Source: Lycium barbarum (lineage: Eukaryota; Streptophyta; Magnoliopsida; Solanales; Solanaceae). From it: DNA of 64,000 nucleotides. The notes below the pieces were generated by a model. That model searched no databases. It was not told where the DNA came from and saw only the letters and a list, made by a program, of their open reading frames with translations. The translations under genes were made by a program, and so were the position numbers. The stretch is taken from positions 49,080,938-49,144,937 of the forward strand of contig NC_083337.1 of assembly GCF_019175385.1 (NCBI RefSeq), given 5' to 3'. Of this stretch, positions 1,264 through 60,083 are shown in pieces; the first letter of the stretch is position 1; every line of letters starts with the position of its first letter.

Positions 1264-4200
1264 TGTTACATCCGACATTTTCGCTTATTCAAAAAAATTC
1301 AAGATAAATTGACTTGTGATGAATAAGGCCACAATTGGACCTTACTTGGTATGCATGTGTAGGTTATGAATTCAATGGGGTGGAATTACGAAAGGTGGCC
1401 AAGGGCAAAATTGGAATTTTGGAAACTTGTTCCATGAATTACCATATGTAACCAACCATTTTGGGCTCAAAAAAAAAAATAAGTGAAGTGAAGCCCAATT
1501 TTAAGAGGCCCATTCGGCCAAGACCAACCCAAGGCCCATGGAATTAATTAATTTCCATGTGCTAAATATATATCATCCATATCCTTAAGAACATTCAAGA
1601 AAAAAATCAAAGAGAAAGAGTAGAGAGCAAGAGAGAGCATTTCGGGTTTGGAGAGAAAAAAAGAAAGAAAAGAAAGAAATTTTTTTTGGAGCCAATCCTT
1701 TGGTTTAAAAAGTTCATCTCTTGAGAGATTATTGCTAAGCACAAGATTCTCTACAAGTTGATATAAAGATTGTGGCAAGAAAACAATTTCATCTTCCAAG
1801 TGTAGAACTTGAAGAAAGGTAAGGATTTCATGCTTTTGTTGTGTTAAAAATGATGTATGTATGTTGTAGTATGTGTGAATGAATGAAAAATATGGAAATT
1901 TGGTGTGTTGGAATTTGGGGTGTGTGGCCGAAATGCATATATGTATATTGCATGTCTATGGTGACTTGAAACTATGTTGAAATCTAGTTGTAGTGTGGTA
2001 GGAATTGTATTAGAAATGAAAGTTGAATGAATTAAGGAAAGTTGAGAATTTTGAGGTGTGGCCGTGTGGTGTGTGTTGGTGTTGGAAGGTGAATTGAATC
2101 TTGTTAGCATGTTAATTGTGTTGTTATGGAAGATTGGTTATTAAGTTGTTGAAAGTTAGGAAGGGATTGGAAAAGTAGTGACTTGATGGAAAGTTGAATG
2201 TTTGTGAATTTTATGAATATCTTATGAATATTATGTGAACATGTTATGGATTCCTCCGATGTGTGTCGTAATGATTTTGATGGATAATGGATATGAAAAT
2301 AATAAGTTTTGGTTGGAAATGTAAGCTTGAAACGAAAGATGATTCGTCGTGTCGAAAGGTGGCTAATAATGCCATAGCGTATGATTTAGTGTTTATTGAT
2401 GTTTGTTGTTGTTTGGATGTCTCCTCTGGGTTGTTGTGTTGCTAAATTGAGCCGAGCTAAGTCTCGGGGATGTCGTATATACAGAGGAAATGCTGCCAAA
2501 ATTTCGGTAGGCAATTATGTGTAAAGTTAGAGTATTGAAAGAATGGAACTAACCAAATGGTAAACTTGACCATTTCCAGATTTTGGACGAAATTTGGATT
2601 GACGCCAAGCGAGCATAAGGCGCCATCAAGGTATGTGAAGCACTTCTCTACGTTCCTAGGCATGTTCTGGATGTGTTAGGTTCGGCCGCGAGCCTTAAGT
2701 CCGACTCCGTTCCCTGGAATTCGAGACGGAAAACCGCTCCAATTCCTTCAATTCAATTGAACCTATTTTCTTACAAATTGCCCTTAAAGTGAGATTTTGC
2801 ACAAAATTTCCCCAAACGGAGTCGGAACACTTCCGATTGAGTATGGATGACCTCATAAGGTCAACTATCAATAATTTACGTATGTATCCTCGGGTTGGTC
2901 CGAGGTGGGCCCACAAGGCCCGATACTTCCGGTACGATTTTAAAATACATCTGTTTTGGTCCGATTTTCTCCAAAAACTTCTGAACTATTATTTTATGTA
3001 TATTATGGCTATTTTTGTGTAATTTATACATTATGATCTCTGAACATCTGAGAATCCCATTCTGGTAATAATCTGTCGTGCCTTCCCAACTAGGATATAG
3101 GCGCGTGCTATGCATACTATCTGGATATTCTGATTTTGGCTCGCCGTTTGGCACCCTTCAGTTTGATTGAGTCTGTATGTTGAGTCTGTAGGTAGGTGGT
3201 TTCTCATTTATCGGTTCGTGTCTATCTCAATGCATTCTTTCACTGCGACCCGGGCCAGGTTCTGTTATCGTGCATATTTCTCTGCATTGTTCACCGCGTC
3301 CCTCGGCGTACGGGCCGGGATCTGTATGTCTGTATGATCTGTGTATGGGGATGGCGGCCAGGATGGCATATGATCTGATTTGATTCTGTCTGTCCACCGC
3401 GTCCCGTACTAAGAGGGCCGGGTTCTGTTACCGCGCCCCCAGACAGGGCCGGGATCTGTATGAATATATGCGTGTGCCATCTGTATTTATAAAGCACACG
3501 TCTCTGTATGATTTTGTATGACTCTGTGCTACTCTGCATGCATAATTCTGTCCGACATACTACTGTCTGTCCGTCTGTGGTACGACTATTTCTGTATGTC
3601 CGTATGGCTTCTGCTTCTGTATGTCTGTATGAATTCAGATTCTGCTCGTCTGTCCGCATTATGATTCCGTCTGTCTGCCCGAACTATAATTCTGTTCATT
3701 TGTGTGTGACACGATTCTGTGTGTCTGTCTGGATCATAACTCTGTCCGTCAGTTTGATTTATGATTCTGCCCGTTATATTTCTGTGACTCTAGTTCGGAC
3801 TATGTTTATATCTGTTACGTTTTTGCTCTACATACTCGGTACATTTTCCGTACTGACCCCCGTTCTTCGGGGGCTGCGCTACATGCCCGCAGCTACAGAC
3901 GCACCAGGTGATACGCCGCCCGCGTAGGTTTCCGACTTTGCTTTTTGAAGAGCTCCTTTGACTTGGAGCATATCTTTTGGTATATATCTTCTGTCTTCTG
4001 TGTACTCCGTATGTTTGTATATTCTGGGTACGGCGGGGCCCTGTCCCGTCATATGACTCTGTATGTCTGTAGAGGCCTGTAGATAGATGTGTGGGTTACG
4101 GGTTTCGTCTGTATGTTAGCCTTATCGGCTTACTTGTAAATATCTGTATGTTCAGGTATATATGTATATATACGTATGTTACGCGCGTGCCGTACTTGTA

Positions 4201-4332: not shown

Positions 4333-5172
4333 CATATACCACACGGCCATATGCTTATTTTTCCACATCAACTAAATTCATCCAACTTTCAATTCCCATA
4401 TGCATTTCATCACAATTACAACTAGAATATAACATAAATTCAACACAACTTGGCTATACAACATATATATACACACGGCTACAAGCCATATACCAAACCC
4501 ACATTGCAAACTTCCATTTTTCCATACAATCAACACATTTCTATATACAACAACACAATCAAAACTTCATAACACAATAAAAAGGTAGAAATTCTTACCT
4601 TTTCTTCAAGTCTTCTTCACTTGAACTTGTGTTCACTTTGAGGAATCTAATGCTTCCCACTCCAAACCAACTATACCAAGATGCAAAGGAACCTTGACTT
4701 AGTAGGAAAACAACAAGAATTGAATTTTTAGAACAATATTTATGGTGGCTATTTTTGCACCTCAAACCCGAAATGGTCTTCTTTCTCTCCTTCTATTTTC
4801 TTTGTTGTTCTTATCTCTAATTTCTTAAGTCTTCTATGGTATATGTAGTTGAAGTGCTTGGTCACATGACCAAGCACATGACCAACTAAAATTGGGCTTG
4901 GATCATGGCCTAATGTGGCCGGCCATACACCCCTTTTTGGGCCTCACTTACAATTCAATTTTTGAGCCCAATAACTTATGGATCGTATTTTATAATTCCC
5001 GAAACTAATTTCCAAAATTCCAAAATTACCCTTAACCTTGTCCCACACTTTCATGACTCTATTCTTTCATGCATAACTCCTACGTTCAACAAAATATCAA
5101 ATTTGACCTCGTATCTCAAGAATCCATTATTTATCGAATTTTTCCAAACGTGTGAAAACACGGGATATAACA
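4333..5172 (-). repeat. Reverse LTR fragment of the array family
   Basis: Read on the minus strand from 5172 it starts TGTTATATCCCG and continues as the array LTRs do (TTTTCACACGTTTGGAAAAA). It keeps the GGCCGGCCACAT block, the A-rich leader and the donor-like AAAAGGTAAGAAT near 4595. It stops at 4332, where LTR B intervenes. Its start sits inside the 5' LTR of element C. I infer that a minus-strand array-family element inserted into C and was then itself hit by B. Confidence 0.75.
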
Positions 5173-7838
5173 GTTATTGTTATGAATGATATGTGGAAAA
5201 TGGAAGTTGAATGACTTTGGAGAGATTGTAGATGTGCATGCATGTTGTGGCCGTGAGTTGTGGTATGTATATGTGGCCGTTTATACATGATGTATGGCCG
5301 TGTATATTGGTGAGTTGTGAAAGAATAATGAGCAAGTTATATTTAATGTTTTAGTTGTTGTGTTGTAGATTTTATATTGCAAATAAAGGCTTGATAAGTT
5401 TGGTGAAGTATTGATAATTGGAAGATTATGTATATTGAAAGACAATGTTCTTGCATGGATAGCATGTAATGGTATTAGTATGATGTTGTTGGAATTCCCG
5501 GATTGTGATTGATGAGAAATTTGGCTATGTTGAATGTTGAGGATGGTATATTTACAGAGGAAGTGCTGCCGAAATTTCGGTAGCCAAGTGTTTCCTTAAG
5601 ATCCTAACTCCAAGTATCCTAATAAGAGTTTTGGTAAACATGACCAATTTGCAGATTTTGACGAGATTGCAACGTGAATTCGCAATATCAAAAGTAGCGG
5701 AAAGAGGTATGTAAGGCTTCACCCTTCCTTCTATGGCATGTCTTAGCTATAATAAGTTGGGTACGAGCCTCGGGGACAACTCTATTCCCCGGAATCCGCA
5801 CCTAAAGTTTTCTCCTTTTTGTTCAATAGAATTGAACTAGAAAGTGCAAAATGATGGAAAGACCTCCTAAACCCCTAGAACTTGCACAAATGGGACCCGA
5901 TTACCGTAGAATCCTCACAAGTAACGCTATGACGTGTAATATATGCAAATAGTATACGCTACCTCATCCGGCCCGTGGTGGGCCCATTACCCTCGGATTT
6001 TCCTTATAGTCTTGTTGGACTTACTAGAAGTTGAATCTAAGGGAATCCTTTGATCCCGATTTCGTTACCAAATGATAAGTACTATAACTACTCTAACGAG
6101 GAGACTTCCATGATGATAATGATAACAATGATGCTAGACGAGAGGATATGCCTACGATAAGTACTACCGGAACGATTCTATGACTAGGATTCCCTAGCTA
6201 AGTATTCTATGTGAATATGAAAGTAATAAACTAATTTTCGAATCTTATTTATATTCCTTAGCTATGACATTATTTTCTAAGGATTTCAAAGCCTATGAAC
6301 TGACATCTATGATGCCCCGATTTCATTCTACGTTTACTTTAATATTATTCTCCGTTGATAGTCTCACCATAAAATACTCGTCCCTTCAAGGTGAGACGAA
6401 GCGATCACGAATATTCCATAGTGTAATCGGAGGTCACCGACCTTACGCCACTCCGATGGCTACATGATTTTTCTTTGGGCTCCCTTGCATGTTTATATGA
6501 TATATGTGTATAAAACATGTATATGTATATAAGATATGAATATGTATATAAAACATGTATATGTGTATAAGATACGTATATGTCTATAAGATATGTAAAT
6601 GTATATAAGACATGTATATGTATACAAGCTATGTATATGAATATAAAGACATGTATATGTATGTAAGAGATGTATATGACCCTGGGATGGGGGGAAGGGA
6701 TATATGGGGGAATGGGAAGGGAAACATGTTTCATTGCCACCTGATCAGCTGGCTTATCATCCCGGACGCGGGGTTCCCGGACGCGGGATATATGGGTGAG
6801 CCGGTGTATATCGGCGCTATGTGGGTGAGCCGACATTGTTCAGCGCAATGATATGACCTACCATGTCATGACCAGACATGCTATGATAAGATATGCTATG
6901 ACAAGCTATGCTATGACCTGATATGCTATGACATGACATGCTATGACAAGCTATGCTATGATATGATACGCTATGCTATGATATGATACGCTATGACACG
7001 CTATGCTATGACACGATACGCTATGACATGCTATGCTATGATATGATGTACTATGATATGATATACTACGGCCTGACATACTATGACACGAAACACTATG
7101 ACACGATATGCTACGACATGAAAAGATAAGATATGATACGACATGATACGATATGATAAGACATGACATGATATAAGTTCTATTTTCTATGTCCACGAAA
7201 AAGAATATTTCAAAAAGGGAAAGACAAGCCTACATGATAGCCGGCCTAAAAGGGGCCTTCTCGCGTACAGGTTACTTTCTTGCCTCATTATATGCCCTAT
7301 GACTCCATGATATTATTAATTATACTCTATGTTACTGCTTGTGTTATCTTCCATGCCTTACATACTCGGTACACTATTCGTACTGACGTCCGTTCTTGCG
7401 GACGTAGCGTTTCATGCCGCGCAGGTCAGCATACAGGTGGATTTGATCCCTAGAAGCTCTACCAGCCGTACTTGACAGCGCTCCAGTTGTTCCGGAGCCT
7501 CACTCCTGCGGTACTATTTTGTGTATGTATATTCGGGAACGGCAGCACCCGGTCCTTTCTATGTATAAGTGTACTATGTCTAGAGGCTCGTAGATAGATA
7601 TGCCCAGTCAGTCAAGTACAGTTAGATATATGGTGTTTTAGAATGTTAATGTTGTTGTATAAAGTGATAACGAAGTTTACTAGTCTATGTTCATAATGAC
7701 GCTGCTAATGTTATTGTTCAAAAAAAAATATATGGCGCTATTCATACGGTTTGCTAAGAGGTAGAGGTAAAACGATAGACAAGGGGTGCTCGGTACAAGT
7801 ATCGGGTACTCATCACGGCCCCTAGTCGAGTCGTGACA
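5173..7838 (+). repeat. 5' LTR of element C, 5'-truncated
   Basis: Collinear with 10635-13311 of the 3' LTR. A mini-exon candidate lies at 5655-5706 (52 nt, acceptor AATTTGCAG, donor GTATGTAAGG, no ATG). An AT-rich minisatellite (TGTATATGTATATAAGA-like) spans about 6490-6675 and a 5/15-bp repeat 6845-7175. The twin hairpin is at 7368-7407; its second stem is ACGTCCG/CGGACGT. The LTR ends GAGTCGTGACA just before the primer site. Confidence 0.85.
6845..7175 (+). repeat. CTATGATATGATACG tandem repeat (C 5' LTR)
   Basis: Pentamer-based repeat (TATGA, TACGA, CATGA variants) that falls into 15-bp higher-order units. Because 15 is a multiple of 3, it keeps several frames open and creates spurious ORFs on both strands. 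The 3' LTR counterpart is at about 12306-12645. Confidence 0.85.
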
Positions 7839-9886: not shown

Positions 9887-12800
9887 TGTTATATCCCGCA
9901 TTTCTGTACAATCGGATAATTCAAAACAATCGCGGGAAGACAGTAACCAAGGCCATATTTTTACTTTGCTTGGCATATAAGTTGTTATGAAAATTTTGAA
10001 GTGGAATTAATGAGAAAGGTTAAGGGCATAAAGGGAAGTTGCAATATGACTCGTGGGAAATATGGAGAAAGGCGAAGGGTAAATTTGGAAGTTGGAAAAA
10101 TGTTTCATGAATCACAAGAACTAGCCCAAAAATAAGTGGGCTTGAATTTTTAAAGAAATGGACAAGGCCCAACCGGCCATAGGGCATGGGCTAGGCCCAT
10201 GATTAATTAATTCATGGGAATTAAATAGATGACTAAGTCATCTTTTTGCTACCATTCTCTAGAAATTTCAAGACAAGCAAGAACAAGAGAGAGAGGAGAA
10301 AAACATCAAGGCCATTCGGCCATAGAGAAAATTCCCAAGAAAAATTTGCAAAATTTCTCCAAAAATCATTTCCTACTAAGTAAAGAGTCCCTAACAAGGT
10401 GGAGTAGTCATTGGAACAAGAAAACACAAGTTCTTGAAGTTACAATTTTGGCTAAGTTGGAGGATCAAAGAAGAAGGTGAGAATTCATCTCCTTTAGATG
10501 TTATGAATATTTATATGTGTTGTAGTGTGCAAAAATGGATGAAATTCGTGAAGGAAAGGAATATAGAGGGTGGCCGTTTATGTATATATATGTGTGTAGG
10601 AAGTGTGTTTTAATTATCTTGTCTAGTGTTAGTTGTTATTGTTATGAATGATATGTGGAAAATGGAAGTTGAATGACTTTGGAGAGATTGTAGATGTGCA
10701 TGCATGTTGTGGCCGTTAGTTGTGGTATGTATATGTGGCCGTGTATACATGATGTATGGCCGTGTATATTGGTGAGTTGTGGAAGAATAATGAGCAAGTT
10801 ATATTTAATGTTTTAGTTGTTGTGTTGTAGATTTTATATTGCAAATAAAGGCTTGATAAGTTTGGTGAAGTATTGATAATTGGAAGATTATGTATATTGA
10901 AAGACAATGTTCTTGCATGGATAGCATGTAATGGTATTAGTATGATGTTGTTGGAATTCCCGGATTGTGATTGATGAGAAATTTGGCTATGTTGAATGTT
11001 GAGGATGGTATATTTACAGAGGAAGTGCTGCCAAAATTTCGGTAGCCAAGTGTTTCCTTAAGATCCTAACTCCAAGTATCCTAATAAGAGTTTTGGTAAA
11101 CATGACCAATTTGCAGATTTTGACGAGATTGCAACGTGAATTCGGAATATCAAAAGGAGCGGAAAGAGGTATGTAAGGCTTCACCCTTCCTTCTATGGCA
11201 TGTCTTAGCTATAATAAGTTGGGTACGAGCCTCGGGGACAACTCTATTCCCCGGAATCCGCACCTAAAGTTTTCTCCTTTTTGTTCAATAGAATTGAACT
11301 AGAAAGTGCAAAATGATGGAAAGACCTCCTAAACCCCTAGAACTTGCACAAATGGGACCCGATTACCGTAGAACCCTCACAAGTAACGCTATGACGTGTA
11401 ATATATGCAAATAGTATACGCTACCTCATCCGGCCCGAGGTGGGCCCATTACCCTCGGATTTTCTTTATAGTCTTGTTGGACTTACTAGAAGTTGAATCC
11501 AAGGGAATCCTTTGATCCCGATTTCGTTACCAAATGATAAGTACTATAACTACTCTAACGAGGAGACTTCCATGATGATAATGATAACAATGATGCTAGA
11601 CGAGAGGATATGCCTACGATAAGTACTACCGGAACGATTCTATGACTAGGATTCCCTAGCTAAGTATTCTATGTGAATATGAAAGTAATAAACTAATTTT
11701 CGAATCTTATTTATATTCCTTAGCTATGACATTATTTTCTAAGGATTTCAAAGCCTATGAACTGACATCTATGATGCCCCGATTTCATTCTACGTTTACT
11801 TTAATATTATTCTCCGTTGATAGTCTCACCAGAAAATACTCATCCCTTCAAGGTGAGACGAAGCGATCACGAGTATTCCATAGTGTAATCGGAGGTCACC
11901 GACCTTACGCCACTCCGATGGCTACATGATTTTTCTTTGGGCTCCTTTGCATGCTTATATGATATATGTATATAAAACATGTATATGTATATAAGATATT
12001 AATATGTATATAAAACATGTATATGTGTATAAGATACGTATATGTCTATAAGATATGTAAATGTATATAAGACATGTATATGTATACAAGCTATGTATAT
12101 GAATATAAAGACATGTATATGTATATAAGAGATGTCTATGACCCTGGGATGGGGGGAAGGGATATATGGGGGAATGGGAAGGGAAACATGTTTCATTGCC
12201 ACCTGATCAGCTGGCTTATCATCCCGGACGCGGGGTGCCCGGACGCGGGATATATGGCTGAGCCGGTGTATATCGGCACTATGTGGGTGAGCCGATATTG
12301 TTCGGCGCTATGATATGACCTACCATGTCATGACCAGACATGCTATGATAAGATATGTTATGACAAGCTATGCTATGACCTGATATGCTATGACATGACA
12401 TGCTATGACAAGCTATGCTATGATATGATACTCTATGATATGCTATGCTATGATATGATACGCTATGACACGCTATGCTATGACACGATACGCTATGACA
12501 TGCTATGCTATGATATGATGTACTATGATATGATATACTATGGCCTGACATACTATGACACGAAACACTATGACACGATATGCTACGACATGACAAGATA
12601 AGATATGATACGACATGATACGATATGATAAGACATGACATGATATAAGTTCTATTTTCTATGTCCACGAAAAAGAATGTTTCAAAAAGGGAAAGACAAG
12701 CCTACATGATAGCCGGCCTAAAAGGGGCCTTCTCGCGTACAGGTTACTTTCTTGCCTCATTATATGCCCTATGACTCCATGATATTATTAATTATACTCT

Positions 12801-14893: not shown

Positions 14894-15236
14894 TGTTATA
14901 TCCCGCGTTTTCACACGTTTGGAAAAACTTTAATTATATTGGATTCTTGAGATATAAGGTCAAATTTGATATTTTGTTGAATTTAGGAGTTATGCATGAA
15001 AGAATAGAGTCATGAAAGTGTGGGACGAGGCTAAGGACAATTTTGGAATTTTGGAAATTAGTTCCGGGAATTTCAAAAGGTGATCTATAAGTCTTTGGGC
15101 CCAAAATAAATGAAGAAAATTTGGGCCCAACACTAAGGGGTGGCCGGCCACATAGTGGCCCAAACCCATGGTTAGTTAATTATTTTTCCATGTGCTAAAT
15201 ACTTGGAAGAAGGCATTATTTATAGAACTTTCAAGA
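14894..15236 (+). repeat. LTR0, truncated first LTR of the array
   Basis: Matches the first ~343 bp of LTR1-4, up to TTTATAGAACTTTCAAGA, then switches abruptly to integrase sequence at 15239. It carries private changes (CCCGCG instead of CCCGTG, one extra C near 15167), consistent with being the original 5' LTR. Confidence 0.9.
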
Positions 15237-15238
15237 AG

Positions 15239-16533: not shown

Positions 16534-16879
16534 TGTTATATCCCGTGTTTTCACACGTTTGGAAAAACTTTAATTATATTGGATTCTTGAGATATAAGGT
16601 CAAATTTGATATTTTGTTGAATTTAGGAGTTATGCATGAAAGAATAGAGTCATGAAAGTGTGGGACGAGGCTAAGGGCAATTTTGGAATTTTGGAAATTA
16701 GTTCCGGGAATTTCAAAAGGTGATCTATAAGTCTTTGGGCCCAAAATAAATGAAGAAAATTTGGGCCCAACACTAAGGGGTGGCCGGCCACATAGTGGCC
16801 CAAACCATGGTTAGTTAATTATTTTTCCATGTGCTAAATACTTGGAAGAAGGCATTATTTATAGAACTTTCAAGAGAAT

Positions 16880-17107
16880 AGATAAGAAGCAAGAAAACAA
16901 AGCAAAACAAGAAAGAAAAAAAGAGGAGAGGGTTCGGGTTTGGCCATAGGAATTTGACCATCAAAAATCTTGTTCAAAATTTTTTTCTCTTGTTGAATTC
17001 TTACTAATTCAAGGTCCCTTCTCAACTTGGTGTAGTTGGTTTGGAAGGAAGAAGTCTTGTTTCTTCAAGTTGACCCTATATTGAAGTGAAGAAGATTGAG
17101 TAAAAAG
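16880..17107 (+). other. Predicted leader exon 1 (ATG-free)
   Basis: Purine-rich, begins about 25 bp after the TATA-like box, and has no ATG over some 228 nt although the flanking LTR is ATG-rich. It ends at a strong donor, AAAAAG|GTAAGAAT. The exact transcription start is a guess. Confidence 0.5.
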
Positions 17108-18011
17108 GTAAGAATTTATCCCTTATTATAGTGTTATGAAGTATTGTTTGTGTTGTAGTATGTAGAAATGAGTTGATTGTATGGAAAAATGGAAGTTTGC
17201 GAAGTGGGTATGGAATATAGAATGTGGCCGTGTGTGTGTGTTAATGTGTAAGTGAAATGAGTTGAAATTTATGTTGTATTCTAGTTGTGTGTATGATGGA
17301 ATTCATATGGAGAATGAGAGTTGAATAAATTTGGTTGAAAATGAAATATAGGGGTTTGGCCGTGTGGTATGGTGTTGGTAGGATGCTAATGAATTAATTT
17401 TGTTTAATGTGTTAGTTGTGTTATTGTGATGCTTGCAATGAAAATGAAGTTAGAATGATATAAGTTTGTATTGAATTAGAATGTAGAAACTTATGTCGTT
17501 CTAGTATGACTTTCCGACATTAAGGAAATGAAGTTGTTTGGTTGTTAATTGTGATGATCATTGATGAATTTGGAAGTTGGAAACATGTTATGAAGTTGTA
17601 TGCCAAAGATTTGATGTTTTGCATAAGTTATGACTTTGACGGAAAGTTGTGTATTATGTATATCGAGTGTATAACTTGAGGAAAACGATATGAAATGTTT
17701 CTAGAACTATATGGTGATGATCTTGATTGTTGATGAATGTGAAATTATTGATATTAGTTGAAAGTTGGGTTGAAATGAAGGTTATGTCAACTTGTTTGAA
17801 AGATGACTAGTTGAAGGATATTTGTGTTTTTAATGTTCGTTGTTGATATTGATGTTGTCGTTTCGGTTGTTGTTGATGATTTCTAGCCGAGTTGAATTCT
17901 CGGGGTGCTATATGTATAGGGGAAGTGTGCCTAAATTTCGGTAGACAAATATGCATTAAGTTGAAACTTTGGTATTCATAACTCACAATTGGTAAACTTG
18001 ACCAATTACAG

Positions 18012-18062
18012 ATTCTTGACGAAACGGGAGGTGAGTTTGGAAAGGCGTAAAGAGCTTGAAAG
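18012..18062 (+). other. Predicted 51-nt leader mini-exon (LTR1)
   Basis: Acceptor GACCAATTACAG ends at 18011 and donor GAAAG|GTATGTAAAGC starts at 18063. There is no ATG inside. Copies sit at 26239-26289, 34469-34519 and 42695-42745. Equivalent segments of 47-53 nt occur in LTRs B, C, D, E, G and H. Confidence 0.6.
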
Positions 18063-19596
18063 GTATGTAAAGCAACCCCAATTCTTCCCTTGGCATGCCC
18101 TTAGTGTGTTAGGGTCGGATCCGGGCCTCGAAAGACTTCTTGGCCCTCGGAATCCGCAAGAGAAATTCTCCGTTTTTCCTTCAGTAGAATTGAACCATTT
18201 TGGTATGCTTTTCTTGAAATTATGCAATTTTGTTCTAAATTACATGGAAGGTCACAGAATATTTGTAGAACCTTTTTAGGTGACTCCATAAGCTTGGAGG
18301 GCATAATTTGAGCCCGCCGCCTTGTTTGTCCCGAGGCGGGCCCACTATTCCCGGTTTTGCCCTTAATGTACTAAAGCTTTCCTTTTAAGCGATTTTTGAA
18401 AGAAACGTTTGACTACCCTTTTTAATTTACCAAACGAATATTGTTTTAAATATCCTATTAAGTCTTGTAAATTATTTTCACACCCGGAACGACTTCAGGA
18501 AGGTTATACTTCTGTAATTTATTATGATATCCGAAATGCATCTATTATGATCCCGTCCAACTCCATTGGATTTGTTTGGCTTTGATACGTTTCACCGAGT
18601 CTTTGAAAACATTTATGATATTTTTAAATTGCATTAGTCTCTCACTACCCCATTCGTGGATGCCCCAATGTTTCCCACACTGAGCCCGAGCCAGGATATG
18701 TTGTCAAGCGTGATCCTTTGCATTGTTCGCCGTGCCTCGATGTGAGAGGGCAGGTATACGCGTACATGGGTTTGTGCAGTATGCTGTGCCATGTACGCTT
18801 GTTCTGATATGATTTGCTATGGCCATCTGATATGATATATTATGTGACGGGGTTATGCCCCATTCTGATTCTTCTGTGTTGTGGCACCAGCACCGGGAGG
18901 GTGGCCACGTTCTATCTACCGAGTCCCTTGGCAGGGGCCGAATTTGATATGACATATGTTTCTGTACACACTCTGCATGTTTTGAAATTATGTATCTGAT
19001 ACTTTGGATTTTTCTGTTTATTTTCTGTATGTCCTGCACCAGTTATGATTTTGTCTCCGTACTTCAGGCTTTACATATTCAGTACATATTTCGTACTGAC
19101 CCCCTTTCTTCGGGGGCTGCGTTTTCATGCCGCGCAGGTACCGACGACAGGTTTGCTGATCCGTCCGCTTAGGATCTTATTCTGCCATTTGGAGTGCTCT
19201 CTTATTCAGAGCCATCTTTTGGTATAGTCTGTCACTTCTACATATGTATATTCTCGTTCATGGGTGCGGCGGGGCCCTGTCCCGTCATATTATTTTGTCG
19301 GTCTTTTTAGAGGTCTGTGGACATGTTTGTGGGTTGGGATCTTTCTGTACAGCTGTGTGTATATGTTGTGTTTGGGCGATCCCATTCGCCGCGGCGGCCG
19401 GTCCGCACTTATGTAAATGTTGCTTTGTTGGCCCTGTGTGGCCTTTGTTGGTATTTTCTGCGTGCAGGGTATATGGGATAGTCCGTAAAACAAAGGAAAC
19501 TCTGCCAAAATTTTTTTGGAAATTATATACTAGAATGTGTTTGAGTGCCCAGATCGGGCACTAGTCACGGCCTACGGGGTTGGGTCGTGACAAAAG

Positions 19597-19608
19597 TGGT
19601 ATCAGAGC
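19597..19608 (+). promoter_or_regulatory. Primer-binding site, unit 1 (initiator tRNA-Met)
   Basis: TGGTATCAGAGC, four bases after LTR1. The same site is at 27826-27837 and 36054-36065 in units 2 and 3. Confidence 0.95.
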
Positions 19609-19649
19609 GGTTCGTCCTCGGAATGTCTACAGACCGCGTCTAGTAGAGT

Positions 19650-19689
19650 CTTGTTTATCGGTGTGTTGTGCACCACACCTATAAACAGG
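19650..19689 (+). other. PBS-proximal RNA hairpin, unit 1
   Basis: CTTGTTTAT pairs with ATAAACAGG and GGTGTG with CACACC around a loop TTGTGCAC, about 15 pairs with one mismatch and one wobble. It lies inside predicted intron 2, so it would be present only in unspliced RNA. Confidence 0.6.
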
Positions 19690-19795
19690 AGGCTACAGGG
19701 CATTTAGGATACTACCCTTCTTTCTGTCTTAGATCGTGCGATAGACCTGTGTTATCAGGATGATTCCTCCCTAACGAATTGTTACATTTGCAGTT

Positions 19796-20092
19796 ATGCC
19801 TCCAAAAAAGGCAACAGCGGCCCAAAAGGCCAAGGCAGCAGCTGTGGGAGAGACTAGTCGGGCCCAGAGGGTTACCAGGGCCCATGCACATATTGCTCCT
19901 GATATTTTGCCCCCGGCAGAGGGCTCTTCCACACCGCCACACGTAGAGGAGATTGGAGCAGCAGCAGCTGCAGGTCGAGGGGCGGCTCCACCGCCAGCTC
20001 CCGAGATTCCAGTATCAGTCCATGAGAGAGGCAGTCCAGCTATTGACCAGACTTGTGGCAGGACAGGTTCAGGGGCACGGACTGGGAGGTGA
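19796..20092 (+). CDS. gag: Gag N-terminal segment, unit 1
   Basis: The 98-codon frame starts [15 protein letters not shown], the usual basic opening of Gag in this lineage. It starts three bases after a splice-acceptor-like ACATTTGCAG (ends 19793). It continues as an Ala/Pro-rich linker and then leaves the coding frame near 20000-20040; the conserved Gag helices continue in the frame of 19953. The same offset exists in all three units, so it predates the array expansion. Programmed shifting so early in gag would be unusual; an inherited indel is the simpler reading. Confidence 0.75.
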
Positions 20093-44517: not shown

Positions 44518-46435
44518 ATCATTAATGCTGGGGAACGTACAGCCTGATCCATCGTACCATGTATCATATATTGTTGCGGAACGTGCAGCCCGATCCATTT
44601 GCCTATATACTCATTATACATCCATATATTTCCGCGGAACGAATGGCTCGATCCATTTGTCCATATATCTCGCGTCCGGGACGATATCATAATATGCCAA
44701 CTGATCAGGTGGTATTGCGTATATAATGCCTAGCCCTTCTTCCCATATCCCATGTATACGTACTCATATATCCATGTATATCATATACTATACATAGCAT
44801 GCATGAGAGCCCAAGTGAAAGCTATAACCCTATCGGAGTGACGTAAGGTCGGGAAGCTCCGATTACATTATAGAATAATCATCATCGCTATGTCTCACCT
44901 TGAAGGAACTAATATCATGAGGTGTGACTACAACAAAGGATAATATCAATGAAATCATAAAATGAGATTATCAAGCTCTTGACAACATTATTTCATAAGC
45001 TTCAGAATCTTTGGAAATAGAATCATCTTCATCATGCTTATCATAGATCATATCTAATCTCTAGCTCATAAGATGCTCTTAAGAATCTTTAACTTTAATC
45101 TTTTGGGATGCAAGAAGGTCATGGAAATGTAAAAAAGAAATCATAAAATAAGAGTCAAGCCTTTGAAAGAAGGGGACTAACCATACATACCTTTACCTCT
45201 TCTTAGCAACTAAGTGTTCTCCTTCCAAGCTCACAACTCTACATTCAAGAGAATTCGCATAACATTAGATCATTAGAAACATGCTTAAGTCTAGGCTAAA
45301 ACGACTAAGGCTAATGAAAATTGGGCAGCATTTCCTTTGTTTAGATAACTTTCTCCATATAATATAACAACTCCCAAACATCAATAGCGACACTCATAAC
45401 AACATAATCACTAGATTTCTCAAGTTAGATATTGTTCAATTCTCAAATTCACTTTCAAACCATCCATAACTATGAGTACAATACAACACCATATTCATTC
45501 TTCACATAATACTTCCTCAACGTTCCTAGCATCATTCATAACAAGATCATTCCCATTTCATACTAAGAATCATGACTCAAATTAACTTACTACTTAAAAT
45601 ACCCTCATTTCTATATTAAAGCTCTATGTTCATCCTTCTCTAATCCAAGTATTTCAACCACTCAATACTTTTGCTAACATGAAATAGTTGTCACCTTTGA
45701 TTATGTAGGAATAATCTTTGGATGAAGATACTCCACTTGGGAAAAACCCAGCTTCAAAACAAAAGGGATTCTTGACTCCCACAAACCCTAGTGAGCCTCT
45801 TTACACTTGATCCTCCTGATCCTTGCTAATTAATCCTTGATTCCTCTTAGATTAGTGTGGATATGATATGGGGAATGTTCTAGAGCTTTCAAGAGTTGTG
45901 GAGAGTGTGGGAAATGAATTAAATGGTCGTGGGTCATATATATATAGAAATAGAAAAATCTGGAAAAAGTGACCCGATTGAGTTATACGGACACTTATAC
46001 GGCTTGTATAAGTGACCGTATAATACTATCGCGGATCTGCCTTTGACCCTTACACAGACCGTATAAAGTTATACAGACAATATAAGTGGTCGTATAACTC
46101 CATTTTTTTTGAAATTATTCTCGTCGATTCGTTTGTTCTCCAATCCTTATGGAACCTTCTTAACACTAGTTTAATCCTTCATTAACCATCTAAGGAGCCT
46201 CATAACTTCTCCTTGAGACATTACTAAGTAATCCTTAGCTCGATAGTTCGAAACCTTCCCAAAACGCGACTTATACTTCACTTTATTCAATGAACTTTCT
46301 TCTATTGCCTCAAATATCTTTGGAATCTTAATTAGAATCGTTAAGTATCCCTTCTTACTTTTAGGGACTTCATGTACACCTTGACTTGCGTTAGTCTATT
46401 CACCGCACAACAACCCGAAACTCCGAGGTGTAACA
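44281..46435 (-). repeat. LTR G, main part (minus), disrupted by the array
   Basis: Minus strand from 46435: TGTTACACCTCGGAG. Mini-exon candidate 45191-45238 (48 nt). The twin hairpin at 44292-44332 has GTAC pairing and a CGTCC/GGACG second stem. A long TA microsatellite at about 44457-44515 and GCGGAACGTGCAGCCCGATC-like repeats at about 44530-44690 fill the usual minisatellite position. It is a 3' LTR, because a polypurine tract and pol follow at 46436. Confidence 0.85.
44457..44515. repeat. TA dinucleotide microsatellite
   Basis: About 29 uninterrupted TA units inside LTR G. The open frames over it are repeat artefacts. Confidence 0.95.
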
Positions 46436-47125: not shown

Positions 47126-49374
47126 TGTAGCGCCCCATAAATATATACACAAACACATCTATGTAGTCCCTGAGTAATGTAGCTATGAATCAAGTCTGTC
47201 TCCTTGGCCACCTGCGGGCATGACGCAGCGTCCATAAATAAAAGGACGTCAGTACGAAGAATGTACTGAGTATGTAAAGCATGATCAATATCTATATAGA
47301 AGCATAATAAGCAACATGAGAAACATCATAAGATGGGAGATAGTAGAATCATCGTCATAAGCACTTACTTGATTTTCATAGGGACTTTCCATTTCTAATG
47401 CGAGGTTGTGTACATACATCCGTATTCGTATCCATACTCATATTCGTACTCACTTACATTTCGTATCCACAATCGTATTCACATGCCTATTCTTATTCAT
47501 ATTCGTATCATGTCCGTATTCATACTCATATCTATATCATATACATATCCATATTATGTACATATTCATATCATATACTTATTTATATCATATACACATT
47601 TATATCATATACATATTTATATCATATACATACCTGGCCAACCAAGGCTTCAAGGTTACACATACCTTGCCCTACCAAGGCTTCAGGCTTACACATACCT
47701 AGCCCTACCAAGGCTTCAGGGTTACATATACCTGGCCCTACCAAGGCTTCAGGGTTATCCATACCCAACTACAGTGGTGTGCGCGCGTAACATAAATATA
47801 TACATATTCTACTCGGCCTTATAAGCTCGGGGTTCCTTAGTAGTAGTATACATAGACACATATACATAATAGCTCATAAACATCTTTAGCATCGTTACTA
47901 TTATCATCGTCGTTACCATTATCGTCGTTCATTACATCTATCCTTATAGTATTACTCGTCATATGAAGAACTTAGTACAATCGTAACATATCGAGAATCA
48001 TAAGATTAGTAGCTGTTGAAGATAGAATCATTTGGAGGACATCATAGACTTATAGAAGATTTAGATGATTGGCCAAAGAACCATGCCTTATGAAAGAAAG
48101 GTTAGCCTTACATACCTTTCCGTTCCACTATTTTACCACTTGCACGTTCTCCTTCAACGCTCACGTTTCTACCTTCATTAAAGTTATACTATCATTAGAA
48201 ACCGATCGCTAGCATACACGACTAAAACTAGAGAAAATCGAACAGCATCTCTTTTATTTATACGACATTCCTCCATATCGTATATCAACTCCCAAACGTC
48301 AATAATACATTCACAATATCATAACAATAGCCTTTCTTCATCCACATTATCTATATTTCTCGATTCACTTCCAATCACCCATATCCATGGTCATAACACA
48401 CGACTACGTTCATTCACATACAATGTCTATCTCGTGTTATTTACATCATTTACAACATGATTACAATCATATCATATCACGAATCATTACTCAATCCAAA
48501 CTATTACTCAATGATGACACTATTCCCACATTAAAAACCCATTTTCTATATTCTTTTAGAATCCAAGTGTTTCAACTTTCAAATACCTTAAACAACATGT
48601 AAATACCATAAATCTTACCTTAGATGTTGTAGGAACAAGCTTTGGGTGGAAATACTTCACTTGAGCCAAAACCCTAGTTCATCTCCAATGAGATTTCTTG
48701 ACTTGGATGACCTTTAATGGGTTTCTTACACTTGATTCACTTAGTTTGATGTTGTTGATCACTAATATCTCTTGAATTCTTGTGGGAGAAATGTAGAGAG
48801 AAGGGGTGTGGAAGGAAATGAAATGAAATGAAATGAAATAAGACTTGATCCCTCATTTAATACACCAAATTCTGTCCCGACCAGTTCTACGGACCAACAT
48901 TCGGTCCATATAAATTATACTGACCATGTCTGGCTGTAGATTTGGTCCAGAGAGGGGTGACAATCTGAACTGATTGTACGGTCCAACATACGGTCCGTAT
49001 GTTTTATACGACCAGTATGTTTGGCTGTATAATCCCCAGTTTTTCGAGGTTCGTTTTCATCGACTCGTTTGATCTCCAATCCTTCTGGAACCTTCTTAGC
49101 AGTTGTTTATCACCTCATTAACAATCTAAGGGACATTATACCTCTTCTCCAAAGCATTATAAATCCTCGTTAACTCGTTGCTCGCAATTCCCTTTTGATA
49201 CCTATCGTATGTCTTGCCTTGTCTTGGCAAACTTTCTCCCCCTATCTCGAATATCTTTGAAATCTTAATTAGGGTCATCAAATGTCATTCCTTACTTATC
49301 GAAATACCGTATACTTCGTGCTCTTCGTTAGTCTATTCACTGGTCATCAACGGAAAATTTTTCGAGGTGTAACA
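47126..49374 (-). repeat. LTR H (2249 bp, minus), apparently solo
   Basis: Starts on the minus strand at 49374 (TGTTACACCTCGAAAAATTT) and ends at 47126 (GGGGCGCTACA). Mini-exon candidate 48116-48168 (53 nt), twin hairpin 47229-47269 (CGTCC/GGACG). No polypurine tract precedes it and no primer site follows, so it looks solo. Yet the flanks AAGAA (47121) and CTTGA (49375) do not match. Confidence 0.7.
47636..47770. repeat. Minisatellite in LTR H
   Basis: Three to four units of about 37 bp sharing CCTACCAAGGCTTCAGG. The flank 47420-47635 is a looser ATTCATATCATATACA-type repeat. The overlapping Tyr/Ile/His-rich ORFs at 47398-47824 are translations of these repeats. Confidence 0.8.
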
Positions 49375-49811: not shown

Positions 49812-52358
49812 CGGAAGTGGAGCTCGCCAATCCAGCTGAAGCATCTTCTAGCAATGTCCTTTACTCATCTGGTGTACCTGCGTGGCATGAAACGCAGCCC
49901 CCGATGAGAGGGGGTCAGTACGGAATATGTACTGAGCATGTAAGGCATGAAATGTAGTAAAGAGGATCATAGCTGAGACAGAGATTTACAAGAACAAACA
50001 TGACTTTAAAACATCAATACACTTGCCTTTTTGAATGAAAATCATGCATATCCGCATCATATATCATGTATACATATAACGTGTCCCGGCCCTCCAGTGA
50101 GGGACTCGGTGGATAAAATCATACATGTCTACATCATATATCATATATGCGTAACGTGTCCCGGCCCTCAAGTGAGGGACTCGGTGGATAAAATCATGTA
50201 TGTCAACATCATATATCTTATATGCATATAACGTGTCCCGGCCCTCTATTGCGAGTCTCGGTGAATAAAGTCATCATATGCCATCCTGGCCGCCATCCCC
50301 GTATCATCATATCATCATATACATATACATATAACGTGTCCCGGCCCGCAAGTGAGAGGGTCTCGGTGAACAATGCAGTGGAGTACGCACGAGAACGTAT
50401 CCTGGCCCGGGCTCAGTGAAGGACATATTGAGGCATCCACGAGCAGAGTACTGAGAAACTATATGCACATAAATCAAGACTCGATAGGTAGGAACGCAAA
50501 TCGACACCCGACGATCATAAGCACGTTTCAAGTCAATCCGGTTTAGTATGAGAAAGTTATGGACATTTTTACCACAGAACCTCTACGAACATTTCCAAAA
50601 CAATCCCAGACTGTATGCAAAAGTTAGAGACATTAATACTTACAGACCCTTTTAGGGACATGCACTCGTTATACTTTACTCGTTATTCAACCATACAGTA
50701 AGCTCAACTATACCGCACGTACTCATGTCAAGAAGTGAGTGAGAATCATAGACAAACTCTGAAACATATCAACTAGAGCTTCGGAAATCATAGATACGTA
50801 TCAACACCATATGAAGTAGCTTATAGAAATCAAGAATATTAGCCATCCTAGTGGCTCTAAGAATAGAAGTTTCTTGGAAATCATACATATACTTTGTCTG
50901 TTTGTTTCACAAGGATCATGCCAAAAGAAAGAAAGGGTAAGCCTTACATACCTGCTCCACGTCCTATTAGCTACGCTTAATTGTCCAAGCTCGCTATCGC
51001 CAGTCTACATTCAAGAGAATTGACATAATCATTAAACACATCGTCACACACTTGTCTTAGTCTTTCAAACAAATTCATTTATAATCTGCCGAAATTTCAG
51101 CAGCATTTCCCCTATAAATACAACCATCCCCGAGAATCTAACTCGGCCAAATCATCAACAACAAACCCGAGAATGCAACTCCGCCAATTTATCAACAATA
51201 ATTCAAGAATTCCACTCGGCCACATTATCAACAATAATCCGAAATCTTCCAAACATAATAAGGACAATAACAACACATTGCTTTCTTCAAAATTCATGAA
51301 CTACATCAACAATCTACACATTAACAACTTCATCAATCAATTAAAAATACATTCTAACGTTAGTAACTTCTTTTACATAATTCGACAACATTTTACTTAT
51401 ATTCAATTCAATCACAACAACCAACTTACAATCTTCCAAACTCAATAAAATCAACACATTTCTCACCTCCAAATCCATGCATTATATCTACAACCACACG
51501 TTGACTACTTTATCTTCACAAACACAAGAAACCATGCTAGTGTCATATTAATTTCTTCAATAATCCCACAATAGTCACAACTTCATTTCAAGTTATCAAA
51601 CCTTCATTTTCATCGTGGAATCCACAACAACAACAATCAAAGCACTAAATAAAATCAATTCATCATATCTACACAACACAACACATATACGGCCAAGCAC
51701 CAACCTACACGGCTACAACATAGCATCCACACTTTCATGAATTTCATCCATTTCTTCACTCTACAACATATACAAACCATCCATAACATATAAAAGAGGA
51801 TCAAACCTTACCTTTTCCACTTAGCTCTTCAACTTGGCTAGAGTTGTGCCTTGCAAGAATAAATGGTATTATTGCTCCAACAACCACTCCATGTTAATTA
51901 GGGCCTTCAAATTAGTTGGAATACTAGAAGAAAATAATTTTTCTTGATCAATTTCTATGGCTACAATTTTTGGTGCCATGGCCGAACACCCTCTTCTTCT
52001 TTTTCTTTCTTTTTTCTTCTCCAAGCTTCTTGAATTTGTGGTGAGAAATATGACTAATAAGTCATATAGATATGCCTACATAATTCATCCATGTGGGCCC
52101 AAGCCCATCCCACTTGGACGGCCACATGGCCCTTCAAGAACTTTCTTGAGTTCTTTGTGAAATTCCCGTTTTGCTCCTGGCCTTCCACAATATTACCATG
52201 AGCCACTTTGCGAATTTCCCTTTTTACCCTTAGCCTTTCTCAATATTTACATACTAATAAACAACCTGTATATTAAAATAATTTTGGAAAATAGTCTTGC
52301 CCTTAAATTACCACAACTTCCTTGAAATATCCGAATGTATGAAATACGGGATATAACA
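49812..52358 (-). repeat. 3' LTR of element D, 3'-truncated
   Basis: Collinear with 55662-58284. Mini-exon candidate 50952-51004 (53 nt, acceptor TTGAATGTAG, donor CAG|GTATGTAAGG). Twin hairpin 49896-49934 with CCCCC/GGGGG. The minisatellite at 50078-50270 has three units of 75-77 bp (ACGTGTCCCGGCCCTC core). Confidence 0.85.
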
Positions 52359-55325: not shown

Positions 55326-58284
55326 TGTCACACCCTAACCTCACTAGGGTGTGATGGGCACCCGACCCCATATTCGGAGCCGAGCGAACCCGCTGACTCT
55401 TATTACATACATAATCCCTTTGGACACTTAAATCAAATAAGAATGAAATACATAGTAAAGCTTTCAGAATCTTTCTTTTCATCGTACTCAATTCAAATAA
55501 AATCTATCATCATATGAAACTTGTAACATGAAACTTAATAACATATCGGCTGGTGGAGCCGCGTACAATACCGACATTCTATACCCACGACTCTGTCTAC
55601 AAAGTCTCTAACATTAATCAGAAATAATAACATATGTACTCTGACTCGGCAACACTCCGAAAGGAAGTGGAGCTCGCCAATCCAGCTGAAGCATCTTCTA
55701 GCAATGTCCTTTACTCATCTGGTGTACCTGCGTGGCATGAAACACAGCCCCCGAAGAAAGAGAGTCAGTACGGAATATGTACTGAGCATGTAAGGCATGA
55801 AATGTAGTAAAGAGGATCATAGCTGAGACAGAGATTTACCAGAACAAACATGACTTTAAAACATCAATACACTTTCCTTTTTGAATGAAAATCATGCATA
55901 TCCGCATCATATATCATGTATACATATAATGTGTCCCGGCCCTCCAGTGAGGGACTCGGTGGATAAAATCATACATGTCTACATCATATATCATATATGC
56001 ATAACGTGTCCTGGCCCTCAAGTGAGGGACTCGGTGGATAAAATCATGCATGTCAACATCATATATCTTATATGCATATAACGTGTCCCGGCCCTCAAGT
56101 GAGGGACTCGGTGGATAAAATCATGCATGTCAACATCATATATCTTATATGCATATAACGTGTCCCGGCCCTCTATTGCGGGTCTCGGTGAATGAAGTCA
56201 TCATATGCCATCCTGGCCGCCATCCCCGTATCATCATATCATCATATACATATACATATAACGTGTCCCGGCCCGCAAATGAGAGGGACTCGGTGAACAA
56301 TGCAGTGGAGTACGCACGAGAACGTATCCTGGCCCGGGCTCAGTGAAGGACATATTGAGGCATCCACAAGCAGAGTAGTGAGAAACTATATGCACATAAA
56401 TAAAGATTCGATAGGTAGGAACGCAAATCGACACTCGAGGATCATAAGCACGTTTCAAGTCAATCCGGTTTAGTATGAGAGTTATGGACATTTTTACCAC
56501 AGAACCTCTACGAACATTTCCAAAACAATCCCAGACTGTATGCAAAAGTTAGAGACATTAAAACTTACAGAACCCTTTTAGGGACATGAACGCTTTATAC
56601 TTTACTCGTTATTCAACCATACAGTAAGCTCAACTATACCGCACGTACTTATGTCAAGAAGTGAGTGAGAATCATAGACAAACTCTGAAACATATCAACT
56701 AGAGCTTCGGAAATCATAAATACGTATCAACACCATATGAAGTAGCTTATAGAAATCAATAATATTAGCCATCCTAGTGGCTCTAAGAATAGAAGTTTCT
56801 TCGAAATCATACATATACTTTGTCTGTTTGTTTCACAAGGATCATGCCAAAAGAAAGAAAGGGTAAGCCTTACATACCTGCTCCGCGTCCTATTAGCTAT
56901 GCTTAATTGTCCAAGCTCGCTATCGCCAGTCTACATTCAAGAGAATTGACATAATCATTAAACACATCGTCACACACTTGTCTTAGTCTTTCAAACAAAT
57001 TCATTTATAATCTGCCGAACTTTCGGCAGCATTTCCCCGGTAAATACAACCATCCCCGAGAAGCTAACTCGGCCAAATCATCAACAACAAACCCGAGAAT
57101 GCAACTCCGCCAATTTATCAACAATAATTCAAGAATTCCACTCGGCCACATTATCAATAATAATCCGAAATCTTCCAAACATAATAAGGACAATAACAAC
57201 ACATTGCTTTCTTCCAAATTCATGAACTACATCAACAATCTACACATTAACAACTTCATCAATCAATTCAAAATACATTCTAACGTTAGTAACTTCTGTT
57301 ACATAATTCGACAACATTTTACTTATATTCAATTCAATCACAACAACCAACTTACAATATTCCAAACACAATAAAATCAACACATTTCTCACCTCCAAAT
57401 CCATGCATTATATCTACAACCACACGTTGACAACTTTATCTTCACAAACACAAGAAACCATGCTAGTGTCATATTAATTTCTTCAATAATCCCACAATAG
57501 TCACAACTTCATTTCAAGTTATCAAACCTTCATTTTCATCGTGGAATCCACAACAACAACAATCAAAGCACTAAATAAAATCAATTCATCATATCTACAC
57601 AACACAACACATATACGGCCAAGCACCAACCTACACGGCTACAACATAGCATCCACACTTTCATGAATTTCATACATTTCTTCACTCTACAACATATACA
57701 AACCATCCATAACATATAAAAGAGGATCAAACCTTACCTTTTCCACCTAGCTTTTCAACTTGGCTAGAGTTGTGCCTTGCAAGAATGAATGGTTTTATTG
57801 CTCCAACAACCACTCCATGTTAATTGGGGCCTTCAAATTAGTTGGAATACTAGAAGAAAATAATTTTTCTTGATCAATTTCTATGGCTTCAATTTTTTGT
57901 GCCATGGCCGAACACCCTCTTCTTCTTTTTCTTTCCTTTTTCTTCTCCAAGCTTCTTGAATTTGTGATGAGAAATATGACTAATAAGTCATTTAGATATG
58001 CCTACATAATTCATCCATGTGGGCCCAAGCCCACCCCACTTGGACGGCCACATGGCCCTTCAAGAACTTTCTTGAGTTCTTTGTGAAATTCCCGTTTTGC
58101 CCCTAGCCTTCCACAATATTACCATGAGCCACTTTGCGAATTTCCCTTTTTACCCGTAGCCTTTCTCAATATTTCCATACTAATAAACAACTTGTATATT
58201 AAAATAATTTTTGAAAATAGTCTTGCCCTTAAATTTCCACAACTTCCTTGAAATATCCGAATGTACGAAATACGGGATATAACA
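55326..58284 (-). repeat. 5' LTR of element D (2959 bp)
   Basis: Minus strand TGTTATATCCCGTATTTC at 58284 to ending GGGTGTGACA at 55326. Mini-exon candidate 56878-56930 (53 nt, no ATG). Donor for the first intron near 57736. Twin hairpin 55746-55784. The minisatellite has four units starting at about 55931, 56006, 56083 and 56160, one more than the 3' LTR. Confidence 0.9.
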
Positions 58285-60083
58285 CCTATATACACCACAA
58301 AGTAAGGATTTTTCATAATTTTAAAGTGACGGAGTATTAATCGAGGTCCAAGAAACGTATAGTCGCGATTATAGTTTTGTTTTGTATTGGAGTTGACTTG
58401 GATTCAAGTAAACACTGAAGATTTTGATATTCTAGATAAAGTAAGGTACGATCTCTTTTTATTAATATTGATTTAGGAATATTTATGAGAATAAGAGTTA
58501 TAATTATTACGTTGGTATTGTTGGCGTATGGATTGAGGTTTGAAGAACGTTTTGGATGAAATTGTGCATATTTATCTTGTAGAATCTTGATGATATTGTT
58601 GTTGATGTTGGTATGGTTGTTGTTGTTGTTGGTTGTTGGATTGTAATTTCGAGGAAGGCATATAAACAGGGGAGATGCTGCCCGAATTTCGACAGATTCT
58701 AAACATAATTAAATTTAAGGCTTAAGACGAGCCTATGATATTGAACCTGATAATAGTATGAATGGCTTATATGTAGACTTGTGGGCTCGGACGGATAAAC
58801 GTTGAGTGGCCAAGGAGACCGAAAGGTATGTTAAGGCTAGTCCCTTTCTTTCTAAAGGCATGATCCTTTTGCTATCAACCTTTGTGTCATACCCATAATA
58901 TCCTTGGTTCCACAAATGCTAGAAGTCCACGAATTACATGATCCTTATGATGTTATTGAGCTTCTAAAGGCATGATTCTTTTCCTACCAACCCATGCATG
59001 AATTCCATAAAAATCCTCATTTCCAAGAATGTTAGAGATTCATGACTCTTAAAGTTTGTATGATGCTAAAGATGAATAGTTTTTTTATGATTACGAGGGA
59101 TTTATTTATCTAAGATCAAAGGCATACGGATTTCATGTTATTATTAGATGATTTTATTCATAGAGATTTCCAAGTACATGAGCTTTATATTATTATGAGA
59201 TGATTGAGCTTTCTTTACAATATCGTAATTATCTTCATTGTTGGTAATCTCATCTTATGAACCTTTATATTATTATGTATTTTCTCATACCGAGACGCGA
59301 TATAGTCGGCCGGCATGGCACGTAGATGTGCACACCACTGCAGTGGGCACGTTATGATATCTCCTCGAACGCGGGCTAATGATCATAACATTGAGCCTTA
59401 ATTGCCGGGCATGATACTATATATATAACACCGACCCTTAATGGCCGGGTATGGTACTATATATATGTATAAAAATGTTTTTTTTTCAAAAGTTAAGCAT
59501 GCATGACATTCGCCTCAAGAGGCATCCAAACGTACAGGTTATCTCTCTCTTATTTCATGTTACGTTTCATATCTGTATTATGTAGTTATCCATGCCTTAC
59601 ATACTCAGTACATTATTCGTACTGACGTCTTTTCTTATGGACGCTGTGTTCATGCCCGCAGGTTTAGGTAGTCAGGCGAGCAGCCCAGCGCAGTAGGATC
59701 TTCCCTCAGCCGCAGTCAATGCGCTCCACTTGGTTCAAAGCTGCAGTCTATTTTGGTATGATATTTTGATTTGTACATATGGGTATGACGAAACCTTGTC
59801 CGTCCTTCCTACAGTTTATACTCCATAGAGGTCTATAGACATTTGTATGTAGTTAGGAAGTTATGTAGCCTTGCCGGCTCTATGATACTCGTGATGTTGT
59901 AGCGGCCTTGTTGGTTCGCATATGTACATATATGTTGGAATATTAGATATTTTTATGTTGGGCCCTTTCTGCGTGTAGGTATTTTTTTTATGTTATGGTA
60001 TCTAATGTTTAAGGTAACTGTTAAGTCAGGTGGTTCCCGGCCTACGGGTCGGAACCCGTCATGCCCTTCGTTGGGGTGTGACA
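58285..60083 (+). repeat. LTR of element E, 5' part missing
   Basis: Plus-strand LTR interior and end, TTGGGGTGTGACA at 60083. Mini-exon candidate 58777-58825 (49 nt; acceptor TTATATGTAG, donor GAAAG|GTATGTTAAG). Twin hairpin 59605-59644 (AGTAC/GTACT; CGTCT/GGACG). Element D inserted upstream of 58285. Confidence 0.8.

Follow-up and report, generated by a model that had tools for sequence, protein, structure and literature searches.

It has long been asked how one retroelement RNA can fill the roles of both messenger and genome. In retroviruses the genome is unspliced RNA that carries packaging and dimer signals, and the messenger is spliced RNA; foamy viruses and HTLV-1 have a splice donor in R. 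Plant long terminal repeat (LTR) elements are described as generally intron-free (PMC12786077), exceptions being Ogre (Ty3/gypsy) and EVADE (Copia), which have spliceosomal introns (PMC12786077, PMC6317226). The barley Copia elements BARE1 and BARE2 are reported to have separate RNA pools for translation and copying, a spliced RNA and non-autonomous relatives (PMC3735527). Here we analyze 64,000 nucleotides (nt) of Lycium barbarum DNA (contig NC_083337.1, 49080938-49144937), hereafter the window, together with the 1.67 Gb genome. The window is densely filled with LTR elements, among them element A, which we take to be a Tekay/Del chromovirus (Ty3/gypsy). An earlier note had proposed a leader split by two introns, intron 1 inside the LTR and intron 2 covering the LTR end, primer site and hairpin. 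We hold it very probable that the leader has three predicted exons, that exactly intron 1 is missing from at least 18 inherited LTR copies, and that removal of intron 2 likely makes the gag-pol messenger. A predicted answer to the question would then be readable in the DNA of an abundant plant lineage.

As a candidate exon 2, the note had pointed to ten segments of 47-53 nt in the window LTRs, with CAG or TAG on one side and GTATGT on the other. All ten are present on the sense strand (Table 1) and, as claimed, free of ATG on that strand, the one ATG at 56878-56930 being antisense. When eight copies are aligned (mean column identity 59%), no invariant run is longer than AGGTATGT, which lies at the donor (donor 2), and the acceptor AG is invariant too. 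The exon-2 ATG total of eight copies is 0, whereas dinucleotide shuffles average 5.1 (P 0.0005). Scored with splice-site weights, donor 2 takes rank 1 to 4 of the 115-265 GT sites in each LTR, and the exon-2 acceptor rank 3 to 31 of 76-198 AG sites; in a scan of 40-60 nt candidate exons the predicted exon 2 is top in 8/10 LTRs and second in A1 and H. Farther upstream, donor 1 (AAGGTAAG-like) is alignable in A, B, C, J, D and I, with a counterpart in H, and G has GTGACA there. The leader before it is free of ATG in A, B and C, as the note had stated (0 per 222-224 nt each, start sites being estimated), and also in a fourth piece, J. Together these four hold 0 ATG, a count reached in 0/4000 shuffles (mean 9.0; single-family P 0.02-0.13).

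A leader of three exons predicts an exact exon 1-exon 2 junction, and LTR copies with that junction were found in the genome. The A-family junction pattern (up to 3 mismatches) matched a single place, L123, and its reversed control none. The L123 LTR follows A from the LTR start to 17107 and then from 18012 onward, exactly the predicted intron 1 being missing; the break points have AG in common. This element retains the primer site and gag start, and is later interrupted by another insertion. A broader junction pattern matched 23 places (reversed control 0), and a decoy join moved by 10 nt matched 2, both one identical off-target string. Twenty-one junction copies were read, i.e. 20 of the 23 places and L123. 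In 18 of them the match to the exon-1 profile stops within 0-4 nt of the junction and that to the exon-2 profile begins at the acceptor, with nothing between. L142 has neither an exon-2 profile match nor GTATGT; L143 and L144 have no exon-1 profile match, yet GTATGT at +51. A conserved distal block of intron 1, described below, is retained in 0/21.

At 95% identity the junction copies fall into 13 clusters, at 80% into 8. Of the 23 places, 16 belong to seven groups on one strand, each with two or three members spaced 3.7-5.7 kb, and copies compared inside six groups are 96.7-100% identical over 1 kb, which fits a loss carried by both LTRs of an element or by tandem units. Past the junction, L123 is 89.3% identical to the intron-bearing L101 and less than 80% identical, over 500 nt, to each other junction copy; at least two independent losses of intron 1 are therefore likely. 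Since LTRs hold the exact junction, intron 1 was spliced and the resulting RNA reverse transcribed. As read from genomic DNA, precise excision of intron 1 in past RNA is thus shown, and reverse transcription of RNA without intron 1 but with the primer site follows from these LTRs and established retroelement replication. Such LTRs correspond, in nature, to the engineered intron reporters with which retrotransposition was demonstrated. The unspliced acceptor pattern matched 18,694 places, against 23 for the junction, a ratio that is a guide only, the patterns being unequally broad. Because intron-bearing copies are in large excess, unspliced RNA would be the usual genome. RNA lacking intron 1 alone was reverse transcribed, and therefore intron 2, not intron 1, is likely to gate RNA fate.

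The observation extends far past the window, into loci chosen by primer site alone. Our independent sample consists of the first 40 genome places that matched a 16-base primer-site pattern, the sole criterion of choice. A window-derived profile recovered the exon-2 region in 34/40, and 30 rows formed 12 clusters at 75% identity. Six loci lacked exon 2. The LTR ends of L086 and L090 are of a different type; in L083, L089 and L105 the resemblance to window LTRs is limited to the neighbourhood of the LTR end or to scattered pieces; and L116 retains a donor-1-like site and matches H only as far as intron 1. L110, counted among the 34, has an other-type LTR end at its primer site, and its exon-2 match, 3.3 kb upstream, is probably that of a neighbouring LTR. 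The GT...AG ends are conserved across diverged copies: donor 2 keeps GTATGT in 35/35 covering rows (34 loci, mean column identity 0.70), donor 1 is GT in 23/24 loci (GTAAG in 19/24), and AG is present in 27/31 exon-2 acceptors and in 24/24 gag acceptors.

ATG and T content were compared in the 22 loci with all sites, exon 1 being taken as 220 nt. ATG counts were 23 in 4840 nt of exon 1, 856 in 18224 nt of intron 1, 1 in 1170 nt of exon 2 and 1145 in 35215 nt of intron 2, i.e. 0.48, 4.70, 0.09 and 3.25 per 100 nt respectively; 21/22 loci have an exon 2 without ATG. T content in the same order was 25.1, 38.4, 22.6 and 35.4%, and intron 1 was T-richer than both exons in 22/22 loci; a higher U content has been reported for plant introns than for exons (PMC3735527). 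Counted in 25-nt bins, the number of ATG per 100 nt steps from 0.33 to 4.0 and then 7.3-8.7 at donor 1; at donor 2 it steps from 0.0 to 4.2 and then 6.1. The depletion starts about 225 nt upstream of donor 1 (one bin within it is at 1.17), and 14/24 genome loci have TATA-like boxes at -230 to -277 relative to donor 1. The many-LTR alignment and ATG test that the earlier note had proposed as a check thus came out in its favour, with conserved splice dinucleotides and both predicted exons depleted in ATG.

Close to the first coding ATG, the acceptors reported for A, C and E do exist (Table 1). In the sample, gag starts were recognized by protein motif alone (MPPKK-like) in 24/40 loci, and YAG ends 1-2 nt before the ATG in all 24, at exactly 2 nt in 22; only 89 of 4558 background ATGs have YAG at this spacing. 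A less clean count on longest open frames gave any AG within 15 nt in 19/24 and a score of at least 5 in 14/24 (background 296/4553); the five frames without AG have it within their first codons, because they begin a few codons upstream of the MPPKK methionine. The three-exon leader predicts that an acceptor lies at the gag ATG and that the depletion of ATG stops at the donors, and both hold in the independent loci. Intron 2 can be inferred, with strong support, from its two conserved ends and from the ATG and T steps.

Primer site and hairpin both lie inside predicted intron 2. In four window families the hairpin is a stem with an 8-nt loop holding a self-complementary hexamer, GTGCAC, GCGCGC (twice) or GCCGGC. 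It was found in 31/40 sampled loci, with a palindrome in 28 of the 31 (GTGCAC in 27). Over 19 distinct rows, 98.4% of cells pair, compared with 42-65% when slid; covariation is modest, the two-sided changes (2 pairs) being equalled by 30/500 shuffles. Loop palindromes of the HIV-1 dimer site include GCGCGC and GUGCAC (PMC5874298), and by analogy a dimer role may be envisaged for this hairpin. Upstream of the primer site, 19069-19150 is the most conserved LTR stretch downstream of exon 2 in an alignment of A, B and E. It contains palindromic and hairpin-like pieces and might perhaps act in 3' end formation.

The following scheme can be proposed. Transcription would start near the TATA-like box, about 250 nt upstream of donor 1. 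Removal of both introns would place an ATG-poor leader directly before the gag ATG, and the fully spliced RNA would be the messenger. RNA retaining intron 2, with its primer site and dimer-like hairpin, would be the genome, most copies arising from RNA that had also retained intron 1. Such a partition between genome and messenger is what the arrangement of sites suggests. A wider reading, to which we give decidedly less weight than to the split leader itself but which still seems probable, is a splice-gated switch of RNA fate in an abundant lineage, where the occasional loss of the LTR intron, inherited in both LTRs, records how frequently spliced RNA entered particles, and where two acceptors, one adding an upstream ATG, tune messenger output.

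The second of these acceptors lies inside intron 1. Among the 19 AG columns examined in the exon-2 alignment, three reach 0.85: one at the end of exon 2, one at the proximal acceptor and a distal one, whose AG lies 98 columns farther upstream. The distal AG is present in 28/31 copies, preceded by T in 16 and C in 12 (T 15 and C 12 at the proximal acceptor), and an ATG lies between the two acceptors in 29/30 loci. The distal AG may serve as an alternative 3' splice site, the resulting leader being translated poorly, and the weakness of the proximal acceptor fits partial splicing. Just after the distal acceptor, at 17918-17946 and equivalents in L085-L122, there is a near-invariant palindrome-like block, RTGCTGCC.AAATTTC..TAG. 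A conserved mini-ORF in it (MLPKFR or MLPKFL, then stop) was not adopted, as 8/28 copies begin with GTG, not ATG.

Several observations weigh against the split leader or its regular use. All the evidence is DNA sequence, and sunflower Tekay elements are missing from the expressed set reported in one study (PMC7730604). The exon-2 acceptor AG, intact in 27/31 copies, is lost in some, and its distal competitor is stronger (mean score 7.0 vs 5.1). ATG occurs inside exon 2 in 3/31 aligned copies. Only 12/22 loci have an exon 1 without ATG, the other 10 leaders holding one, and in the window ATG is present in the exon-1 leaders of D (2), H (1) and I (4). The donor-1 profile missed 10/34 loci, and a plain scan, which finds a strong upstream donor in five of these, finds none in the other five. 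Splice sites persist in B, C, D and E despite the lack of pol. Few loss events may stand behind the junction copies. Finally, two exon 2-gag junction patterns matched 0 genome places, leaving no trace of intron-2 splicing; this is expected, without being proof, because RNA without the primer site should not be copied.

This last result, together with genomic traces that exist for intron 1 only, would also suit a leader in which intron 1 is an ordinary leader intron and the only one spliced, gag being translated from RNA that retains both primer site and hairpin, whether by shunting, by leaky scanning or by reinitiation, with no partition. For plant pararetroviruses, shunting is described across a leader that is rich in ATG and has a Met-tRNA primer site (PMC5902531). 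We nevertheless find it unlikely that only intron 1 is spliced: no motif of its region is as conserved as donor 2, YAG adjoins every recognized gag ATG, ATG density leaps directly after donor 2, and a short upstream open frame with its end just before the hairpin was seen in A but in none of C, D2 and E. It is less likely still that the intron-1-less LTRs are chance deletions, or descendants of a single founder, with little bearing on regular splicing. The AG common to both break points leaves the break ambiguous by 2 nt, and several junction copies fall in near-identical groups. The junction was, however, predicted ahead of the search, the shifted decoy gave only its two off-target places, and the copies spread over many clusters, L123 being closer to an intron-bearing LTR than to the others. 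Finally, the sites could be conserved DNA elements that are never spliced, transcription beginning downstream in the LTR, near the primer site. The strongly conserved block at 19069-19150 would suit such a role, and the start sites are predicted only; the exact intron-1-less copies, the ATG and T steps at the donors and the gag-adjoining acceptor make this a highly improbable account, and the three-exon leader remains our preferred reading.

Table 1. Positions in the window of predicted leader features and related sites
Feature	Coordinates	Strand	Remarks
A LTR, first of four in array	16534..19592	+	other three: 24761-27821, 32991-36049, 41217-44275
TATA-like box	16856..16863	+	predicted start ~16886
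Predicted leader exon 1 of A	16886..17107	+	5' end estimated; 0 ATG in 222 nt
Predicted intron 1 of A, inside LTR	17108..18011	+	exactly absent in L123
Distal conserved acceptor AG	17918..17919	+	equivalent AG in 28/31 genome copies
Predicted exon 2 of A	18012..18062	+	array copies end before GTATGT at 26290, 34520, 42746
Predicted intron 2 of A (LTR end, primer site, hairpin)	18063..19793	+	donor GTATGT; acceptor at gag
Primer binding site TGGTATCAGAGC	19597..19608	+	
Post-primer hairpin, loop palindrome GTGCAC	19649..19690	+	
Start of predicted exon 3	19794..19798	+	gag ATG at 19796
B exon 1	1595..1818	+	
B exon 2	2580..2630	+	
J exon 1, 5' LTR piece	4599..4822	-	
C1 exon 2	5655..5706	+	acceptor ends 8049, ATG 8058
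C2 exon 1	10253..10476	+	
C2 exon 2	11117..11168	+	
G exon 2	45191..45238	-	
H exon 2	48116..48168	-	donor 1 at 48618
D1 exon 2	50952..51004	-	donor 1 at 51811
D2 exon 2	56878..56930	-	donor 1 at 57737
E exon 2	58777..58825	+	acceptor ends 60282, ATG 60293
Df exon 2	61956..62002	-	
I exon 1	62880..63111	+	4 ATG

Element A is a tandem array (16534-44275) with four LTRs and three internal regions; its 8.2-kb units share about 99% identity. It encodes gag, protease, reverse transcriptase, RNase H and integrase in gypsy order, plus an SH3_Tf2-1 domain; a PF00385 chromodomain at the integrase end is weak (E 2.3e-4, 21.4 bits, under the Pfam cut-off of 25.1). The retrotransposons with the split leader are likely Tekay chromoviruses. 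All three array gag starts reach a stop at the same place, after about 98 codons, and pol is in a different frame. A fragment of A LTR at 14894-15239, running from the LTR start to about A coordinate 16875, near the predicted transcription start, is fused to the array's pol end.

Within the window, gag-pol is present only in A. A tblastn search with the A open frame gave no match in B, C, D or E, which therefore look non-autonomous, and G matched at the pol end alone. The C frame has 134 codons and no Pfam match, and the E frame is short. Elements in which no pol was detected (8058-8459 of C; L093, L112) have a common acidic frame beginning MKR(S/T)ASD. The C LTRs carry 15-bp tandem repeats at 6780-7219 and 12242-12691, and the H LTR (minus strand) has several more strong GTATGT-type donors downstream of exon 2, at 47633-47731. 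In a viral contig collection tblastn found no relative, and the 70 pattern matches are about the chance level estimated for 15 specified bases; phage and plasmid collections gave no match. Reverse transcriptase stretches in published bacterial assemblies (L071-L074) are probably plant contamination, at least in part. They were left unused: only L073 extends upstream of gag, and its leader is different, with a start codon about 60 nt past the primer site.

The open-licence papers searched yielded no report of introns in the leader or LTR of Tekay or other chromoviruses, nor of LTRs minus an intron, which is not proof of absence. Strong donors in thousands of LTR copies also bear on gene annotation, as they could drive chimeric host transcripts. 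Compared with retroviruses, where Gag comes from unspliced RNA, gag-pol here is predicted to require removal of the primer-site intron, and no env was seen in these elements. The introns described in Ogre and EVADE lie within or between coding regions (PMC12786077, PMC6317226). In BARE the intron is at the gag end, the spliced RNA is Gag-only, and the pools are split by promoter and capping (PMC3735527), whereas the introns predicted here are in the leader and LTR, one holding the primer site. CaMV (cauliflower mosaic virus) and RTBV (rice tungro bacilliform virus) share an ATG-rich leader, a Met-tRNA primer site and leader splice donors; their unspliced RNA, however, is described as translated by shunting, splicing serving distal frames (PMC5902531). 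Cer1, a Ty3/gypsy element of C. elegans, likewise has spliced and unspliced RNA with different fates (PMC10309623), but according to a review the spliced RNA encodes an export protein, not gag-pol.

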